DNA of 64,000 bases. It comes from Pegea sp. RAD2-039. Lineage: Eukaryota > Chordata > Thaliacea > Salpida > Salpidae. The stretch is taken from assembly GCA_034620365.1 (NCBI GenBank), contig JAQGEQ010000170.1, positions 868,001 to 932,000 on the forward strand, in the 5' to 3' direction. The position numbers and the translations under genes are program-made. Positions 1 through 56,122 of the stretch are shown here, piece after piece (the first letter of the stretch is position 1; each line of letters opens with the position of its first letter). The notes beneath the pieces are model-generated. The model saw nothing but the letters and a program-made list of their open reading frames with translations, made no database searches and was not told where the DNA came from.

Positions 1-5407
<5,407 letters not shown>

Positions 5408-26147: not shown

Positions 26148-26310
26148 AAACAAGCGTTTGGGATATCTCACTGAGATTGCCGATGCCTCTGACTATTTTG
26201 ACAATGAGCTCAGTTGTTACCCAATTCAATTATGACGTCACTATTAAACCTTTTATCGTTATACTTTCGCCAAGTTTTAACACATTTTATCATTAGTATT
26301 CGGCACGCAT
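26148..26310 (+). promoter_or_regulatory. Conserved promoter block of duplicated gene, copy 1, with CRE
   Basis: This 163-bp block upstream of the start codon is nearly identical to 35471-35633 and has the same length. It contains a perfect palindromic CRE, TGACGTCA, at 26233-26240, 78 bp before the ATG, followed by CTATTAAACCTTTTATC. Similarity between the copies begins abruptly at AAACAAGCG. The CRE suggests CREB/ATF-type control; that is inference. Confidence 0.7.
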
Positions 26311-27264
26311 ATGAGCATTTCACGAATTTCTAAAATGAGTCTTTCAGTGAAGCCAAGTTTGAATGATTATAGAGTCAGCTCTCATTGTAATCGTTTACTC
26401 GAAGATAAAATCGAGTTGTGGGAGTTTCTGGCCCTTGAAAAAATTTGTCTTCAGGAAGATTTTAACATCGACGATGTTGAAAAAATAAACCTGAATCGAG
26501 ATGGTAATTCTCGACCAGACTCTGCTCCACCCTTGCTGGTGATGAAAAGTCATAAAGAAACTAACTTGCTTCGAAGAAGAAGTTATTCACTAGATAACCT
26601 TAAAATTGGTTGTAACAAGCCCTACAAACATATTAATGGACTTCCACCTTTGTGGATTTCTACACAGAAACCTAAAGTCAAAAAAAGTAAGAAGGGTTCT
26701 AAGAAAAATAAAAAGAAGATTCAGTTGAGTAAAAAAAGAAATTTAGCTGTAACAAAAGCTGAGTTTAAGAATCAACTACGAAATCTTAGTATACCGCCTT
26801 GTATTCCCGAGTTAGTTGAAGACATTATATCAACTAGCTCTGAAAGTAGTAATACTTATGGTGCTTGTGATGGAGATGGTGATAGTTTAAACTCCATAGA
26901 TGAAATAAAAAGCATTGATTCGTTTTATGCTGGAGGTGATGGCAATAACAATGAAATAATAAAGAAAAGTATTGAGCAAAGCTTTCAATATATGCCATTT
27001 AAAGAAACCATCAAAACTACACCGATTAAAGCAAGAAGCTCATCTAGTTTTCGTAACTTGCTTATGAAGAAGAATCGGGTTTCACCATTAATTATAGCTG
27101 CTGAACCTAAATCTCAGAAAAAGTCAGTTTGGAAAAGTTTGAAAAGCAAGCTTAGCATTTCTTGCAAAAGTTCCATTCTTGACAAAACCTTCTATTATAT
27201 GGGTGCTGCATCCTCAAAATTAATATTTCCTTCATTTAACTTTGCCTTATTAATTGTAAAATGA
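26311..27264 (+). CDS. Unrecognised single-exon protein, duplicated gene copy 1
   Basis: A 317-residue open frame without introns and with no family I recognise. Visible parts: an N-terminal region LNDYRVSSHCNRLLEDKIELWEFLALEKICLQED; a phosphosite-like RRRSYSLDNL at about residue 95; a Lys-rich block (KPKVKKSKKGSKKNKKKIQ) that could be a nuclear signal; an acidic/Ser middle; and a basic C-terminal half with SSSSFRNLL and KKSVWKSLKSKLSISCK. No signal peptide or membrane segment. A second copy lies at 35634-36608 in the same orientation. By eye the two proteins differ by about 16 substitutions plus a 7-residue duplication, with about 11 silent changes, and both stay open, so the reading frame is under some constraint. 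The start is fixed by conservation of both the frame and the 163 bp before it. Confidence 0.8.
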   Translation: MSISRISKMSLSVKPSLNDYRVSSHCNRLLEDKIELWEFLALEKICLQEDFNIDDVEKINLNRDGNSRPDSAPPLLVMKSHKETNLLRRRSYSLDNLKIGCNKPYKHINGLPPLWISTQKPKVKKSKKGSKKNKKKIQLSKKRNLAVTKAEFKNQLRNLSIPPCIPELVEDIISTSSESSNTYGACDGDGDSLNSIDEIKSIDSFYAGGDGNNNEIIKKSIEQSFQYMPFKETIKTTPIKARSSSSFRNLLMKKNRVSPLIIAAEPKSQKKSVWKSLKSKLSISCKSSILDKTFYYMGAASSKLIFPSFNFALLIVK

Positions 27265-30610: not shown

Positions 30611-30955
30611 TTTGAATAAGGTTATTCAGGTTATAGGTTATTAGGATAACAAATTTATTCTGATATTGCTTATAAGCTTTGATAAAACTGTTTTCAGTAA
30701 AGGATTTGTATATTTTTTGTGATCATATCTGGATTAGAAATCAATTTGGACTTTTTATCATCTTCAATTTCTATATACTCTATTTGAATAACTGCTAATA
30801 ACCTGTGATTAAGTTTTGTGGTGTATTTATTTATTATTATTTATTATATATTATTAACTTGGTATATTTATTTATATATTTATTTATATACATATCACAT
30901 ACATTTATCTGACTTATAAATTTCATACTTTGGTGGGAGTTACTAAAAATCTATT

Positions 30956-31951
30956 ATGGAAACTATGGTAGATACAAATGGCAGGACCTTGCGGTCAAAA
31001 GCTCCAAAAAACCCAAGCAAACCAAGTTCTTCAAAACAAGCTTGCAATGGCAATTGCCAAGCTTGTAACAAACCTTGCTCTGGTGAAGATATGGCAATAG
31101 ATTGCATCAAATGCCTCTCTAGGTTTCACCTCACTTGTAGTGATGTGAGTAAAAAATTATATGATATATTTGAAAATAATAAAATGCAGCAAGTGGGATT
31201 TTGTTGGACCTGCATTAAATGTAGATCTATGGACAAAACAACTACCTCGTCCAACACTAACAAAAGCCTATTGTCCGACATCAGCAACACCATATCCACT
31301 GAATTGGCCAAATTAAAATCCGAATTTGGCAACGATGTTGCCAAAATCAATGAAAAGATTTCTATCTTATCCAAATCTATGGATGAACTGGATGCCTCCA
31401 CAAAGAAGCCTCTCACATGGACCTCAGTTGTTGGTAATTCTGGATCCGAAAAAAATACTAGCGTGGTGCAACTTCTTGCCAAGAAGGTTACTGACACGCA
31501 CAAAAAACTTACTCTGGACCGGGAGGATAGAGAAAACAATGTCATCATCTTTGGTGTCTCTGAGACTGATAAAGACGATGACATCAAGACTTTTAATCAA
31601 ATGTGCACTCAAAGCCTTGGTTTTGTGGACGCTCCAAAAGTTTCAATGACCAGACTCGGGGCAAAAAGAACAAATCATAAAAGACCGTTAAAAGTGTCCT
31701 TTCAAGAAAGATGGGACAAACGTAAGTTTCTTGCTAAGCTGTATAAGCTTAAGCAGGACGAAAAATTCCAGGGCATCAGAGTAGCACATGATATGTGTGA
31801 AGATGATCGCTCAGAAAATAAGCGTCTTCTAAAAGAGGCGTACAGCCGAAATCAGAAAGAGCAACTAACGGATTTCAAATACAAAGTTCGAGGTCCACCA
31901 TGGGCTTTAAAGATTGTGAAGGTATTTTCAAAAAACGGAAGTGCAAAATAA
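30956..31951 (+). CDS. LINE ORF1 protein with PHD-type zinc finger
   Basis: 331 residues. Residues about 30-90 hold a Cys/His pattern, CNGNCQACNKPC, then CIKCLSRFHLTC, then CWTCIKC, matching a C4HC3 PHD-like finger found in ORF1 of CR1-type LINEs. A coiled-coil-like stretch (ISTELAKLKSEFGNDVAKIN) follows. The C-terminal half (NVIIFGVSE, then RLGAKRTNHKRPLKVSF, FLAKLYKLK) resembles the RNA-binding, RRM-like part of LINE ORF1 proteins. It binds element RNA as a chaperone in related elements. The frame is intact. ORF2 could begin in an overlapping frame at 31900 or at the ATG at 32008. Confidence 0.85.
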   Translation: METMVDTNGRTLRSKAPKNPSKPSSSKQACNGNCQACNKPCSGEDMAIDCIKCLSRFHLTCSDVSKKLYDIFENNKMQQVGFCWTCIKCRSMDKTTTSSNTNKSLLSDISNTISTELAKLKSEFGNDVAKINEKISILSKSMDELDASTKKPLTWTSVVGNSGSEKNTSVVQLLAKKVTDTHKKLTLDREDRENNVIIFGVSETDKDDDIKTFNQMCTQSLGFVDAPKVSMTRLGAKRTNHKRPLKVSFQERWDKRKFLAKLYKLKQDEKFQGIRVAHDMCEDDRSENKRLLKEAYSRNQKEQLTDFKYKVRGPPWALKIVKVFSKNGSAK

Positions 31952-32007
31952 CCACTGGACCCACATCATCCTTATTCAACCTCTCTTCGCACAAAATTAT
32001 TAATACT

Positions 32008-34940
32008 ATGCTTCCAGCCCAAGATACCAGTACACAGAAGCCTACCACCAAATCTTACAAGTGTCAAAAAGACAATTTTTCTATTATATTAGGTATGTTT
32101 TTCAACGCACGGTCAATTGTCAACAAAATTTTCGAATTGAAAGCTCTTTTGCTTTCTCAAGATTTTACATTTGTTTTCATTACCGAAACTTGGTTGAAAC
32201 CCTTTTATCCTGACTCCTTTCTGGATGACAGTGACCTTTTTCGTGCTTTGCGCTGTGACAGACTGTTTGATAGAGGCGGCGGTGTTTGTGTAATCTATAA
32301 AACATCACTGGCACCCATGATTTCAAGAATTAAGATAAATACAATTGATTGCCCAGGATTTGAGATTATTGCTTTCAATTTTCATTACTCAAAGTCTAAG
32401 TTTTCCCGCTTTATATCTACCTACCACCGTCTAAAATTAACGATGAGGTTACTATTAAGGCCTTATTGAAGGTTCTGAAAAGCCTAGTTTGTCCTGAGAT
32501 TTATATTCTTGGGGATTTTAATTTTAGTAGAATTGATTGGAATAACCCAAATTTAGCATTCAATGGAAAATTGTTTAATTTAAATGGAGACAAAACTAAT
32601 TTAGTCAATCTGAGTCATGTCTTTGTAAACTTCCTTGATGCCAATAATCTATCTCAGATGGTTACTTTTCCCGCCCAAGTTAGTGGTAATACTTTGAATC
32701 TTCTCATCACATCAAAACCTGAGAACGTTATCTACGTTGATCAAAATGAACCTTTTGCTCTGACATGCGATCACAACATGATTGAATTCAAGCTCCAACA
32801 AACTTTTTCTACGAACGTTAAAACTCCAAGCATACGGAACTTTTATCGTGGAAATTATAACAGTATAAACAAGTTTTTATCAGGTGTTGACTGGATCTTT
32901 GTTTTTAACTCTACCGAAGACATCAATGATATCTACTCGAGGTTTACTAACATTGTTAATGAGTCAATTAAAAAGTTCATACCTTTATATAGAGTCAACA
33001 AAAAACCACACTTGCCAAGATATTTAAGGAATTTACAGCATTTGAAAAACCTCTTATACAAACAAACTAAAGCAGATCCTTCCATCAAACCTCTATACAA
33101 AGATCTTTGTCTAGTCTACAAGAAATCAGTTTATAGCTTCTATTTAGGAAAAGAAAGTGCAATCTTATCTTCACCTAGCAAGAAAACGTTTTTTGGCTTT
33201 ATCAATCACAAGCTTAAGGCGAGATCTCATCTACCTCCCTTGCTTGATAACGCTAATCAGCTGGTGATGGAACCAAAGAATAAAGCTGAATTGCTAAACA
33301 AACAACTTGAAAAGGTTTTTATAACCGATGATGGCAATACTCCTACTATTTCCTACTCCAATATCCTTTCAAATATCTCTGAGATGGTAGATCTAGACAT
33401 AACAGTTGATATAGTATCTAAGGCTATTTCTTCTCTAAAATCAACAGTTTCCAACACCCCAGATCAAATCCCAGCTTTATTTTTAAGAAAAAGTACTCCT
33501 TCTTTAGCGCTACCCTTATCGCTACTCTTTAACATGACTCTTAAGCAGGGAAGACTTCCACAAATTTGGAAGAATGCTATTATTACTCCAATTTATAAGA
33601 AGGGTCCCAGAAACACTGCACTTAACTACAGACCAGTTTCGCTGACTTCGGTTATCTGCAGAACTCAAGAACACATCATTCACAACCATATAACTAGCCA
33701 TTTGACGGAGCATCATCTAATATCTGATGTCCAGCATGGCTTTGTTAAGCAAAGATCTTCTTTGACTCAAAATCTCACTTTTTTCAATGAGCTTACAGCT
33801 CATTACGAAAGTAATACTCCATGTGACATCATATACCTTGATTTTGCTAAAGCTTTTGATTCTGTTCCACACAACAAGCTCATTACTGTATTGAAAAACA
33901 TAAAAATCAGCAACTCTATCTTAAAATGGATTGAAGATTTCTTATCAGGTAGAACCCAACGAACCCGTGTAGAAAGATCTTTATCTACTCCTAGTAAAGT
34001 CACCAGCGGCGTTCCTCAAGGTTCCGTCCTGGGTCCACTTCTCTTTTTGATTTTCATTGAAGACCTCATCAGAAGACTAATAACAGTAGACAATGTCAGT
34101 GTGTTTGTGTATGCAGACGACATCAAGCTATTATCTGGTTCTCACTCAAAACTCCAAACTGCACTAAATATTGTAGAAAACTGGTCTGCGAATTGGCAAC
34201 TTAAAATCCAGCCAACAAAGTCTGAAGTTATAACATTCTCCCGTAAGCCAGCTGCCAACTTCAGCAACCAATACTACATCAATGGATCTATTCTTGAACG
34301 AGTATCCTCAGTCATAGACCTCGGCATTACTCTGACATCTGACTTCAAATGGCACAGTTATGTTTCCAGAATCTTTGGAAAATCTATCAAGCTTGTCCAC
34401 CTCATCATAAAGACTTTTAATTCTAAAGATCCATGGTTTTACGTCAACTTTTTCAAACTGTACATACATATTCTTGAATACAATGTCAGTACATGGATGC
34501 CATATCAAGTTGGTGATATCAGAAAAATCGAATCTGTTCAGGCAACATTTACGAGATTGGTTTGCAGGAAACTTAATATCAAATACGAGAGTTATAAGCA
34601 TCGTCTCAGCTTCTTCAATCTAGATACTTTGGAAATCCGAAGAATTAAATACGACCTTATTCTGATTTTTAAAATTATTCACAACCTAATTGATCTTCAG
34701 TTTGATGACTTTTTCTCCATTAGTCCCTCCCTCAAGTTATATCAACTTAGAAGACATAAATTACATCTTAATAAGCCCACTCCACCAGCTACGTTAACCA
34801 GATTAAGTTTTTTCTCATACCGCACAATCAGTACATGGAACAATTTGCCATCAGAGATTGTCATGTCAAAATCACTTATGCTGTTCAAGAAAAAGCTGAA
34901 TTGTTATAATATCGCCAACATTGCCATTTCTAAACTGTGA
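32008..34940 (+). pseudogene. LINE ORF2 (endonuclease and reverse transcriptase), one frameshift
   Basis: The first part is open to 32469 and carries the endonuclease start (FNARSIVNKIFELKALL, FVFITETWLKP, DRGGGVCVIYK). The rest is open from 32466 to 34940 in another frame, with ILGDFNFSRIDWNN and the reverse transcriptase: LNYRPVSLTSVICR, IIYLDFAKAFDSVPHNKL, SGVPQGSVLGPLLF and the catalytic VYADDIK. The frame that belongs before ILGDFN (YLPPSKINDEVTIKALLKVL) starts at about 32410, so a single shift between roughly 32400 and 32425 breaks the endonuclease domain. Everything else is intact. This could be a real inactivating change or a sequencing error. Confidence 0.85.
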
Positions 34941-35470: not shown

Positions 35471-35633
35471 AAACAAGCGTTTGAGATACCTCATTGAGAT
35501 TGTCGATACCTCTGACTATTTTGACAACGAGCTCAGTTGTTACCAAATTCAATTATGACGTCACTATTAAACCTTTTATCTTTATACTTTCGCCAAGTTT
35601 TAACACATTTTATCATTAGTATTCGGCACGCAT
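35471..35633 (+). promoter_or_regulatory. Conserved promoter block of duplicated gene, copy 2, with CRE
   Basis: Counterpart of 26148-26310 with the same 163-bp length and few substitutions. CRE TGACGTCA at 35556-35563, again 78 bp before the ATG, with the same flanks (AATTA before, CTATTAAACC after). Confidence 0.7.
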
Positions 35634-36608
35634 ATGAGCATTTCACGAATTTCTAAAATGAGTCTTTCAGTGAAGCCAAGTTTGAATGATTATAGAGTCA
35701 GCTCTCATTGTAATCGCTTACTCGAAGATAAAATCGAGTTGTGGGAGTTTCTGGCCCTTGAAAAAATTTGTCTTCAGGAAGAAAAAATTTGTCTTCAGGA
35801 AGATTTTAACATCGACGATGTTGAAAAAATAAACCTGAATCGCGATGGTATTTCTCGACCAGACTCTGCTCCACCCTTGCTGGTGATGAAAAATCAGAAA
35901 GAAACTAACTTGCTTCGAAGAAGAAGTTATTCACTAGGGAACCTTAAAATTGGTTGTAACAAGCCCTACAAACATATTAATGGGCTTCCACCTTTGTGGA
36001 TTTCCACACAGGAACCTAAAGTCAAAAAAAGTAAGAAAGGTTCTAAGAAAAATAAAAAGAAGATTCAGTTGAGTAAAAAAAGAAATTTAGCTGTAACAAA
36101 AGCTGAATTTAAGAACCAACTACGAAATCTTAGTATACCGCCTTGTATTCCCGAGTTAGTTGAAGACATTATATCAACTATCTCTGAAAGTAGTAATACT
36201 CATGGTGCTTGTGATGGAGATGGCGATAGTTTAAAATCCATAGATGAAATAAAAAGTATTGATTCGTTTTATGCTGGAGGTGATGGCAATAACAATGAAA
36301 TAATAAAGAAAAGTATTGAGCAAAGCTTTGAATATATGCCATTTAAAGAAAACATCAAAACTACACCGATTAAAGCAAGAAGCTCATCTAGTTTTCGTAA
36401 CTTGTTTATGAGGAAGAATCGGGTTTCACCATTAATTATGGCTGCTGAACCTAAACCTCAGAAAAAGTCAGTTTGGAAAAGTTTGAAAAGCAAACTTAGC
36501 ATTTCTTGCAAAAGTTCCATTCTTGACAAAACCTTCTATTATATGGGTGCTGCATCCTCAAAATTAATATTTCCTTCATTTAAGTTTGCCTTACTAATTG
36601 CAAAATGA
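35634..36608 (+). CDS. Unrecognised single-exon protein, duplicated gene copy 2
   Basis: 324 residues, the second copy of the gene at 26311-27264. It is 7 residues longer because EKICLQE occurs twice in a row (21-bp tandem duplication, 35760-35801). Other differences from copy 1 are scattered substitutions, for example Ser to Ile in the acidic middle and Asn to Lys near the C-terminus. The RRRSYSL site, the Lys-rich block and the basic C-terminal half (KKSVWKSLKSKLSISCK) are kept. No introns. No known family recognised. Its nearest neighbours are the CR1/L2-like LINE on the left and a spacer on the right. Confidence 0.8.
   Translation: MSISRISKMSLSVKPSLNDYRVSSHCNRLLEDKIELWEFLALEKICLQEEKICLQEDFNIDDVEKINLNRDGISRPDSAPPLLVMKNQKETNLLRRRSYSLGNLKIGCNKPYKHINGLPPLWISTQEPKVKKSKKGSKKNKKKIQLSKKRNLAVTKAEFKNQLRNLSIPPCIPELVEDIISTISESSNTHGACDGDGDSLKSIDEIKSIDSFYAGGDGNNNEIIKKSIEQSFEYMPFKENIKTTPIKARSSSSFRNLFMRKNRVSPLIMAAEPKPQKKSVWKSLKSKLSISCKSSILDKTFYYMGAASSKLIFPSFKFALLIAK
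35760..35801 (+). repeat. 21-bp in-frame tandem duplication
   Basis: GAAAAAATTTGTCTTCAGGA plus one A occurs twice in direct succession in copy 2 and once in copy 1, adding EKICLQE without breaking the frame. Confidence 0.95.
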
Positions 36609-53052: not shown

Positions 53053-53071
53053 CCAATCACAGTTAGCCACC
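53053..53071 (+). promoter_or_regulatory. ERSE-like element upstream of PDIA3
   Basis: CCAAT, nine bases, then CCACC (CCAATCACAGTTAGCCACC). The mammalian ER stress response element is CCAAT-N9-CCACG, so spacing is exact and one base differs. It lies about 670 bp before the PDIA3 start codon, with a probable 5' untranslated intron between, ending at the acceptor CAG at 53714. ER chaperone genes such as PDIA3 are ATF6/NF-Y targets through this element in vertebrates. Function here is inferred. Confidence 0.5.
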
Positions 53072-53738: not shown

Positions 53739-56122
53739 ATGAGGTTCTGGTCTTTGTTTTCTCTTGTTGCCTTCTTAACAACAGTTTCATTAGCCAGTGA
53801 CGTCTTGGAGTTCACTGATTCTAACTTTGATAGTGAAGTTAACAAACATGATTTCATTTTGGTTGAATTCTTTGCTCCTTGGTAAGTCTTTACTGTCTTA
53901 TTTAATCTGTTTTCAACATTTTATTTGTTGTTATCCAGGTGTGGTCATTGTAAAAAGCTAGCTCCTGAATATGAGAAAGCTGCTACTAGATTGAAGCGTG
54001 AGGACCCACCTATTCCAATCGCAAAAGTGAGTTCTTAAAAGTTTTTTGTCTACTCTGATTCTTTTTGGCTTTTATCATTCATTTGAGTAAAGCACTCCAC
54101 TATGGTTTAAGATCAATTGTAAAAAGTTTAAGAAGAGATGCAAGCAATCAGAAGTATGGGGTTACCCTCATATAAAAGCTTACAAATATGGAAAAGTCTT
54201 TGAAAGATTTAGGGGCCCTAGAACTAAAGGTAAACAAAATGGTTTTTTGTGAGAAGGATTTACAAGATAATGGGCTTGTGTGTTCGTAGTTGGTTTGTAG
54301 AAATGCCACGTGGCCATTTGTGGTTGGGTTTCAGCTGGTTTTAATGTTAGCTCTTTATTTTGACCACTGTTTACATTTATTAATAACTTAGATTTGTATT
54401 TTGTTGAGTGATTGTGGTGTTTGTAGGTGGATTGTACCGCTAATAGTGATGTTTGCTCAAAGCAAGGTGTTAGTGGTTACCCAACCCTTAAAGTGTTCAG
54501 AAATGGCCAAGCCAGCGATTACAACGGCCCTCGACAAGAAGGTAACATGTTTGTAAGCATCTTTGCTTGATAGAAGAGTGTTTGGACATTAACCAATCAT
54601 CTACTACTTATTTTCATCGATTTGTTTCACAGACGGAATTGTTAGCTACGTTTTGAAACAAGCCGCCCCAGCTTACAAGGAATTAGCAACACCTGCTGAT
54701 TTAGATAAGTTCTTACAAGGTCGTGACGGGGTTGTAGTCGGTAAGATCTCTTTCTCATCTTCTTCCTCACTTCATTCACATCCAAAATCTACTCAAAGGT
54801 TACTTCGATGCTTCTGAAACTTCTGATATCAACCTTTTCAAGAAGGCAGCTGAATCAATGAGAGAAGACTACCGATTTGGAGTTGCCACCAACGAAGATG
54901 TCCTGACCACCTACAAAAAGTTCGATTTCTAACCAACTTGATCAGTTAGTAATCCCTACATCCACAGTCAAGTAGTCTTCCATCGTCCACAAAGACTTGC
55001 TAGCAAGTTTGAGCCAGTTGAAGTGGTGATGCCTGAACAAAAACCCAACAGAGCCAACATTGCCGAGTTCTTACGAGTCAACTAGTAAGTCCCCCCTTCT
55101 TCCCAACCAACCAGGCATCTCATTTGCATAATCATCTCCTAGTTTCGGATTATGCGGTCATGCCACTCCCGACAACTTTGCGCGAATCAGCAAACCACTC
55201 GCGCTTGTTCTCTATGACGTCGATTACGATAAAAACTTGAAAGGAACTAATTATTGGAGGAACCGAGTCGTCAAGTTCGGCAAAGCTTATCGTGATGAAT
55301 TCACCTTTGTCATTGGCAACAAAGATCAAATGGCTGGACAAGTTCCTGCTGATCTTCCTGAGAATGATCCTAAAGAGAAGATCCCGAAACCTGTTGTAGT
55401 AGTGATTGATAAATCAGACAAGAAATATGTGATGCCTGAATTATTTGGGTAAGTAACCTTAGAATTGCTGTTTTATTTCAAATCTTTTAATGAATTTAAA
55501 AATATCCTCTAAATTATTATTTTTGTCAATTTTTTGTCCCAAATAATATCTAGCTCGTATCTACATCTTACAGTAAAGAGACCTTCCCCCAATTCCTCGC
55601 TGACTACTTGGATGGCAAAGTTGAACCTTATATTAAGAGTGAAGCGCTTCCCGAAAGCAATGATGATCCGGTCCAGGTAGTTGTCGGAAAGAACTTCGAT
55701 GAAGTTGTCATGGATGAAACTAAAGATGTCCTTATCGAGTTTTACGCCCCGTGGTGTGGACACTGTAAGAGTTTGGCCCCTAAATGGGACGAATTGGGCG
55801 AAAAGGTTTGTTGTTAAAGTACTTTGTTCGTCACTCATCGCGCGTTTGTAGATGAAAGATGAACCTGATGTTGTCATCGCGAAGATAGACGCTACTGCTA
55901 ACGATTCTCCATCACAATTCGCTGTTTCCGGATTCCCTACTATCTACTGGGCTCCAAAAGGAAATAAATCAAAACCTCAAAAGTACCAGGTTCGTAACCA
56001 CTAACAACTAACTTCTGGTTGTCGTTACTAACGCGATACTTCAACAGGGAGGTCGCGAGGTTGCTGAGTTCATCAAGTTCATCAAACAGAACGCATCTTC
56101 CAAGCTAAAAACTGAGTTGTAG
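53739..56122 (+). CDS. PDIA3: Protein disulfide isomerase A3 (ERp57), with alternative exon 3
   Basis: ER thiol-disulfide oxidoreductase for glycoprotein folding. Exons: 53739-53881, 53939-54026, exon 3B 54427-54541 (or 3A 54112-54229), 54633-54740, 54799-54919, 54968-55084, 55143-55448, 55574-55805, 55852-55989 and 56048-56122; 480 residues with 3B. Signal peptide [19 protein letters not shown]. The a domain has WCGHCKKL and GYP (cis-proline). The b and b' domains include [27 protein letters not shown] and [18 protein letters not shown], diagnostic for PDIA3. The a' domain has [36 protein letters not shown] and GFPT. The C-terminus is KTEL, a KDEL-like retention signal. The donor at 54920 (GTTCGA) is weak and inferred from frame. 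Poly(A) signal near 56354. All catalytic cysteines are present. Confidence 0.93.
54112..54229 (+). other. PDIA3: Alternative exon 3A of PDIA3 (mutually exclusive with 54427-54541)
   Basis: A 118-bp open segment between exon 2 and the canonical exon 3 encodes [27 protein letters not shown] and [12 protein letters not shown]. It aligns along its whole length with exon 3B ([35 protein letters not shown]): both cysteines, GYP, Lys after it, Gly and GPR are shared. Both segments start in phase 0 and end in phase 1, and both have a GTAAAC/GTAACA donor. Using both (118 + 115 bp) would break the frame, so they must be alternatives. Exon 3A has about 13 Lys/Arg and 2 Glu; 3B is near neutral. Its acceptor (TTTAAG) is weaker than that of 3B (TTGTAG). 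Confidence 0.75.

Follow-up and report, generated by a model that had tools for sequence, protein, structure and literature searches.

The protein disulfide-isomerase (PDI) family (PDIA1-6, TXNDC5, ERp44 and ERdj5) has diversified by gene duplication; its members share a and a′ thioredoxin domains and are tuned by changes in the CxxC dipeptide, and one of them, PDIA3/ERp57, binds calnexin and calreticulin through b′. In the genome analysed here (assembly of 105.7 Mb in 387 contigs), by contrast, variants of PDIs appear to arise through alternative exons within one gene. Exclusive exons that arose by tandem duplication, as characterized in passages of PMC5740500 and PMC9741552, are neighbouring internal exons of similar length and identical frame, with homologous products and loss of frame on joint use, and the two exons of PDIA3 that we designate 3A and 3B resemble them in all these respects. 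The terms P4HB, PDIA and disulfide are absent from the main text of both papers. A further parallel is the helminth coq-2a/coq-2e switch, in which, according to passages of PMC7434440, two exclusive internal exons likewise exchange part of an enzyme core and the switch is tied to a change of substrate; the enzyme is a different one, and its exons both measure 134 nt, whereas those of PDIA3 measure 118 and 115 nt. The human set has been validated by junction reads (PMC5740500) and the coq-2 switch by RNA sequencing and function tests in C. elegans (PMC7434440), whereas the PDIA3 pair is known from the gene alone. The original prediction, which knew of no described PDIA3 switch of this kind, agrees with the literature on splicing of PDI, PDIA3, ERp57 and thioredoxin, where we found, mostly at the level of abstracts, no homologous-exon switch in PDI genes; it has to be qualified by one human PDIA3 event, assigned to the rMATS MXE class in microglia, in passages that do not mention homologous exons (PMC11346782). 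The type of splicing is thus a known one, and its use as an exon switch in PDI genes is undescribed within these abstracts and passages, which also mention no CVHC or CKFC form of PDIA1.

The locus lies in a 64-kb stretch of DNA with a G+C content of 30%, hereafter the window, and comprises a complete PDIA3/ERp57 gene of ten exons on the + strand (53739-56122; Table 1). With exon 3B the product has 480 aa and the a-b-b′-a′ architecture of PDIA3/ERp57, with two CGHC sites encoded by exons 2 and 8; the Trp codon of APWCGHC spans the exon 1/exon 2 junction, and the KTEL end is a probable ER retrieval signal. Compared with PDB sequences, this isoform scores 474-482 bits against PDIA3 chains, which we take to be human, and at most 309 bits against the other PDIs listed. 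Both full-length isoforms are open, and both exceed the cut-off of 344 bits for TIGR01130 (NCBIfam ER_PDI_fam), with 510 bits for the 3B form and 471 bits for the 3A form. The search found a single copy of the PDIA3 locus, and neither a second copy of 3A nor a second allele was found in the genome, where the only other match to 3A is weak (E 0.9, contig C116). Calreticulin-family matches were found in the same genome. Upstream of the gene, positions 53053-53071 of the window read CCAAT-N9-CCACC, one base off CCAAT-N9-CCACG, which we take to be the ER-stress element.

Table 1 Exons of PDIA3 (window positions) and alternative exons of P4HB (positions in locus L017)
Feature	Position	Strand	Description
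PDIA3 exon 1	53739..53881	+	start codon, signal peptide, beginning of domain a (gene model)
PDIA3 exon 2	53939..54026	+	CGHC active site, domain a; phase 0 end, ...IPIAK (gene model)
PDIA3 exon 3A, alternative version	54112..54229	+	118 nt, phase 0 to 1; donor AAG/gtaaac, weak acceptor gtttaag
Intron 3A-3B	54230..54426	+	197 nt (gene model)
PDIA3 exon 3B, conserved version	54427..54541	+	115 nt, phase 0 to 1; gtaaca after
PDIA3 exon 4, common downstream exon	54633..54740	+	phase 1 start (gene model)
PDIA3 exon 5	54799..54919	+	gene model
PDIA3 exon 6	54968..55084	+	gene model
PDIA3 exon 7	55143..55448	+	gene model
PDIA3 exon 8	55574..55805	+	CGHC of domain a′; PF00085 match at C25:923671-923808
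PDIA3 exon 9	55852..55989	+	gene model
PDIA3 exon 10	56048..56122	+	KTEL end, then stop (gene model)
P4HB a1	L017:3464-3661		domain a, CGHC (exon model)
P4HB a2	L017:3701-3904		domain a, CVHC, GC donor (exon model)
P4HB b1	L017:4417-4509		near b/b′ boundary, upstream version (exon model)
P4HB b2	L017:4592-4696		near b/b′ boundary (exon model)
P4HB c1	L017:5361-5545		domain a′, CKFC (exon model)
P4HB c2	L017:5636-5814		domain a′, CGHC (exon model)

Between the common exons 2 and 4 lie two homologous open segments, 3A and 3B, each with AG before and GTAA after, at precisely the coordinates that the original prediction had given. As it had further claimed, both segments fit the phase in which exon 2 ends and that in which exon 4 starts, their products align end to end with 11 of 38 positions identical, and the net charge is +11 for the 3A product and 0 for the 3B product. 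The cysteine pair (C-x6-C), GYP and GPR are indeed kept in 3A; we take the first to be the structural disulfide and the second the cis-proline motif, and the arginine of GPR presumably helps set the active-site pKa, with a lysine partner that would sit in common exon 2. Joined to exon 4, 3A reads GPRTKDGIV, where the PDB PDIA3 alignment has GPRTADGIV. The BLOSUM62 score between the two products is 58, a value reached in none of 5,000 shuffles (mean -24.8, s.d. 8.6, maximum 13). The Pfam Thioredoxin profile matches 3B at positions 56-93 (E 2.4e-8) and 3A at positions 56-94 (E 6.6e-4), the latter with 20.1 bits, under the curated cut-off of 23.5. In phmmer searches of PDB sequences, 3A matches TXNDC5 with an E-value of 1e-7 for the whole chain, which sums three thioredoxin domains; the best single TXNDC5 domain gives only 13.1 bits (E ~1). 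Exon 3B is a close match to PDB ERp57 (50 bits, against 13 bits for 3A).

The frame logic proposed for the pair also holds, because 118 and 115 nt together shift the frame. A message that includes both exons stops 5 codons beyond 3A, and one that skips both ends in ...IPIAKTELLATF-stop; exactly one of the two must therefore be used. As neighbouring internal exons of similar length, with identical phases and significantly similar products, 3A and 3B have the properties of tandem exons, and their joint inclusion would be unproductive through loss of the frame. Crowding was considered as the cause of exclusivity and ruled out, since the 197-nt intron between them is long enough for splicing. Where 3A came from is less clear-cut: it scores 70 against 3B and 69 against the first domain of PDIA4, and with such near-equal closeness a duplication in place is favoured by position only, so that 3A may derive from another PDI gene, for example from that PDIA4 domain.

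To place the splice sites of the pair on a scale, we used 23 donors and 23 acceptors inferred from gene models rather than from transcripts; nine homeobox introns were kept, while joins in L026, L028 and L029 were dropped as due to chance, and so was the second choice in L040. The 3A acceptor scores 2.1, with just 3 of the 23 reference acceptors lower, and the 3B acceptor 6.3; a score as high as that of 3A is found at 29% of 2,714 AGs on the + strand at window positions up to 50,000. Equally weak acceptors precede conserved exons of P4HB (1.8 for a1 and 1.2 for c2). The 3A donor, at 5.7, lies above 7 of the 23 reference donors, and both P4HB domain-a donors (a1 and a2), at 3.1, lie under all 23. 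The scores of 3A would suit an exon that is minor or regulated, but also one that is ageing. Among the three introns around 3A and 3B, a search for RNA docking of the Dscam type gave no pairing beyond chance: for the three intron pairs, 92%, 57% and 83% of 300 single-base shuffles each yielded a duplex energy as strong or stronger. The 3A-3B intron also contains, at window positions 54305-54314, the palindrome GCCACGTGGC, which resembles the motif that we take to be the G-box.

Outside the window, a tblastn search of thioredoxin loci revealed tandem homologous exon pairs in the PDIA1/P4HB gene (locus L017, contig C23), the product of which has protein disulfide-isomerase as its best PDB match (555 bits). 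Three pairs, a, b and c, were modelled (Table 1), and all eight of their combinations are open across the modelled exons, L017:2886-6005. The products of a1 and a2 are identical at 31 of 65 positions and those of c1 and c2 at 24 of 59, with scores that none of 5,000 shuffles reaches in either case; b1 and b2 are weakly alike, with 7 of 31 positions identical and a score of 19 against a shuffle maximum of 17 (0 of 5,000). Together with the common next exon, b1 aligns with PDB PDI, its own share being the last ~22 residues and the score coming mostly from the next exon. Joint use of c1 and c2 breaks the frame, and the a and b pairs keep it when both versions are used. At 39 nt, the gap between a1 and a2 is below the shortest (46 nt) of 19 inferred introns (7 from PDIA3, 3 from P4HB and 9 from homeobox genes), so the two exons may be too close for joining; the b pair could be an ordinary cassette. 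It is unlikely that P4HB is a dead gene in this genome, because the modelled shared exons run without a break. These independent pairs strengthen the idea of an exon switch and are the strongest new evidence for it. Downstream of the modelled exons, L017:6379-6660 is an open segment, acidic and coiled-coil-like by eye, with KEEL before the stop, which is possibly an unusual PDIA1 C-terminal extension or the end of a separate gene.

We conclude that 3A and 3B are probably a tandem-duplicated pair that takes part in mutually exclusive exon switching in PDIs (probability about 0.75), and both would then be spliced in living cells. It is unlikely that 3A is instead a decaying duplicate exon, its splicing lost and its open frame and splice dinucleotides left over. 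The weak 3A acceptor would suit such a relic, and with the composition of 3A itself, 39 codons would be open by chance in 3% of cases, which is low but not negligible. In a neutral-decay simulation, 3B was evolved neutrally to the observed nucleotide identity of 51%; with one genome, the result hinges on how the divergence is split between the branches. If all of it is placed on the 3A branch, 0.8% of 4,000 runs stay open with AG/GT, and in none of the 4,000 are eight core residues, picked after 3A had been inspected, kept as well. A profile of 14 thioredoxin segments from the same genome, with 3B included and 3A and the P4HB alternatives left out, gives 3A 24.3 bits; under the same split the simulated open copies attain at most 16.2 bits, and 0 of 1,500 reach 3A on a profile that favours them, because 3B, their source, is part of it. 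If half of the divergence is placed on the 3A branch, 9.4% of runs stay open with AG/GT, 2 of 4,000 also keep the core residues and 470 of 1,500 neutral copies score as high as 3A, so that the test loses its power to separate 3A from decayed copies. Most of the divergence likely sits on the 3A branch, because 3B closely matches PDB ERp57, and under this split the profile scores argue against decay, as do the core residues. Three more open pairs in P4HB would also all need to be relics. The ratio dN/dS between paired exons (~0.5 for PDIA3, 0.75 for c1/c2 and 0.84 for b1/b2) is uninformative, because dS is high or, for a1/a2, infinite.

Rather improbable, in our assessment, is a role of 3A as a regulatory 'poison' exon, by which joint or faulty splicing would destroy the message and tune the level of PDIA3, for example in ER stress, with no second protein made. 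Inclusion of 3A together with 3B leads to immediate stops, the intron between them can be spliced, and the weak 3A acceptor is possibly a regulated one, all of which such a device could use; yet it would need neither thioredoxin-like residues nor the exact phases 0 and 1 at its two ends nor a splice-compatible length, and 3A has all three. A poison role would not apply to pairs a and b of P4HB, which keep the frame when both versions are used. A chance resemblance, or a locus misassembled from two genes, would be conceivable with a single assembly as the source, but we hold it to be highly improbable: none of the 5,000 shuffles attains the 3A/3B score, the locus and 3A were each found once in the genome, apart from the weak match to 3A on contig C116, and the join to the flanking exons, phases included, is consistent on either side.

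If 3A and 3B are indeed exclusive alternatives, joining of exon 2 to 3B would yield ordinary PDIA3, and joining to 3A a PDIA3 with a strongly basic second half of the first thioredoxin domain. The part exchanged would extend from the β-strand that follows the CGHC helix to the conserved arginine and include the cis-proline loop. Exclusivity would come from the frame, nonsense-mediated decay and regulated recognition of the weak 3A acceptor rather than from crowding or RNA docking, and a trans-acting factor at that acceptor could set the ratio of 3A to 3B. The swap may alter substrate choice or redox behaviour, as originally suggested; a basic surface beside the retained CGHC would be expected to change the binding of substrates or partners more than the thiol chemistry. 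In PDIA1, the same device might operate at three places, twice by swapping the active-site exon (CGHC for CVHC or CKFC), and as this swap reaches the CxxC dipeptide, redox potential would be its natural target. More tentatively, and with the odds somewhat against it, the disulfide-folding machinery as a whole could be splice-switched, with up to eight forms of PDIA1 and two of PDIA3 that exchange CGHC, CVHC and CKFC sites, the cis-proline segment and the b/b′ boundary, perhaps in coordination for special secretory cargo or a particular stage.

Such a switch, if real, would let one gene change redox behaviour or substrate choice while the rest of the enzyme is expressed as before, and would bring exon swapping into the catalytic thioredoxin domains of two PDIs, PDIA1 and PDIA3, in a family thought to have diversified by gene duplication. 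The natural domain variants (CVHC, CKFC and a domain a whose second half is highly basic) would then offer a means to test which residues in the PDI fold determine substrate choice and reduction potential.

Our scan for comparable pairs compared neighbouring open segments of 30-300 aa that lie on the same strand within 800 nt of each other, 25,138 pairs in all, taken from 57 sources that total 301,800 bases and overlap in part: the window and 14 thioredoxin-family, 30 homeobox, and 12 ERO1 and calreticulin loci. The homeobox genes of the genome (+ strand matches) are, we presume, posterior Hox, Dfd-like and caudal, which would point to a bilaterian animal; the spliced genes mark a eukaryote, and the assembly has no COX1. 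A score of at least 48 is found for 117 pairs before the complexity filter, by which pairs of less than 3.2 bits of entropy were dropped from the list. Among the pairs listed, the window has only two, 3A/3B with a score of 64 and a Lys/Arg-rich pair with 54. Beyond 3A/3B and the P4HB pairs of domains a and a′, no other convincing pair is present among those listed from the 57 sources; the remainder read as the Lys/Arg-rich pair of the window, repeated DNA, and thioredoxin domains in succession or the antisense of such domains. The P4HB b pair scores under the threshold of the scan, which may therefore have passed over further weak pairs, and of 43 PF00085 matches in the genome, three (on contigs C1, C11 and C21) lie outside the loci scanned.

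Further candidate exon pairs in L012, L013, L014 and L015 were rejected, being read as successive domains with alternating first and second halves, by eye for ERdj5 (L015) and from the order of matches only for L012, L013 and L014. One of these loci (L013:2967-5805, contig C374) is a TXNDC5-like gene with several thioredoxin units, in which three first-half exons are partly near-identical, suggesting a recent amplification of exons or domains. The palindrome TGACGTCA is ~45-fold over-represented, with 70 copies where 1.6 would be expected, counted over 45 sequences that total 262,883 bases and overlap in part; 27 copies are in the ERdj5 locus, and in the window it occurs at 3867, 15302, 26233, 35556 and 58208. 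The window also contains, at 30947-34940, open frames that resemble a non-LTR retrotransposon; as read by eye, one starts much like a PHD finger and another has motifs of an endonuclease and a reverse transcriptase. They lie between two near-identical open frames of 327 and 334 aa at 26281-27264 and 35604-36608.
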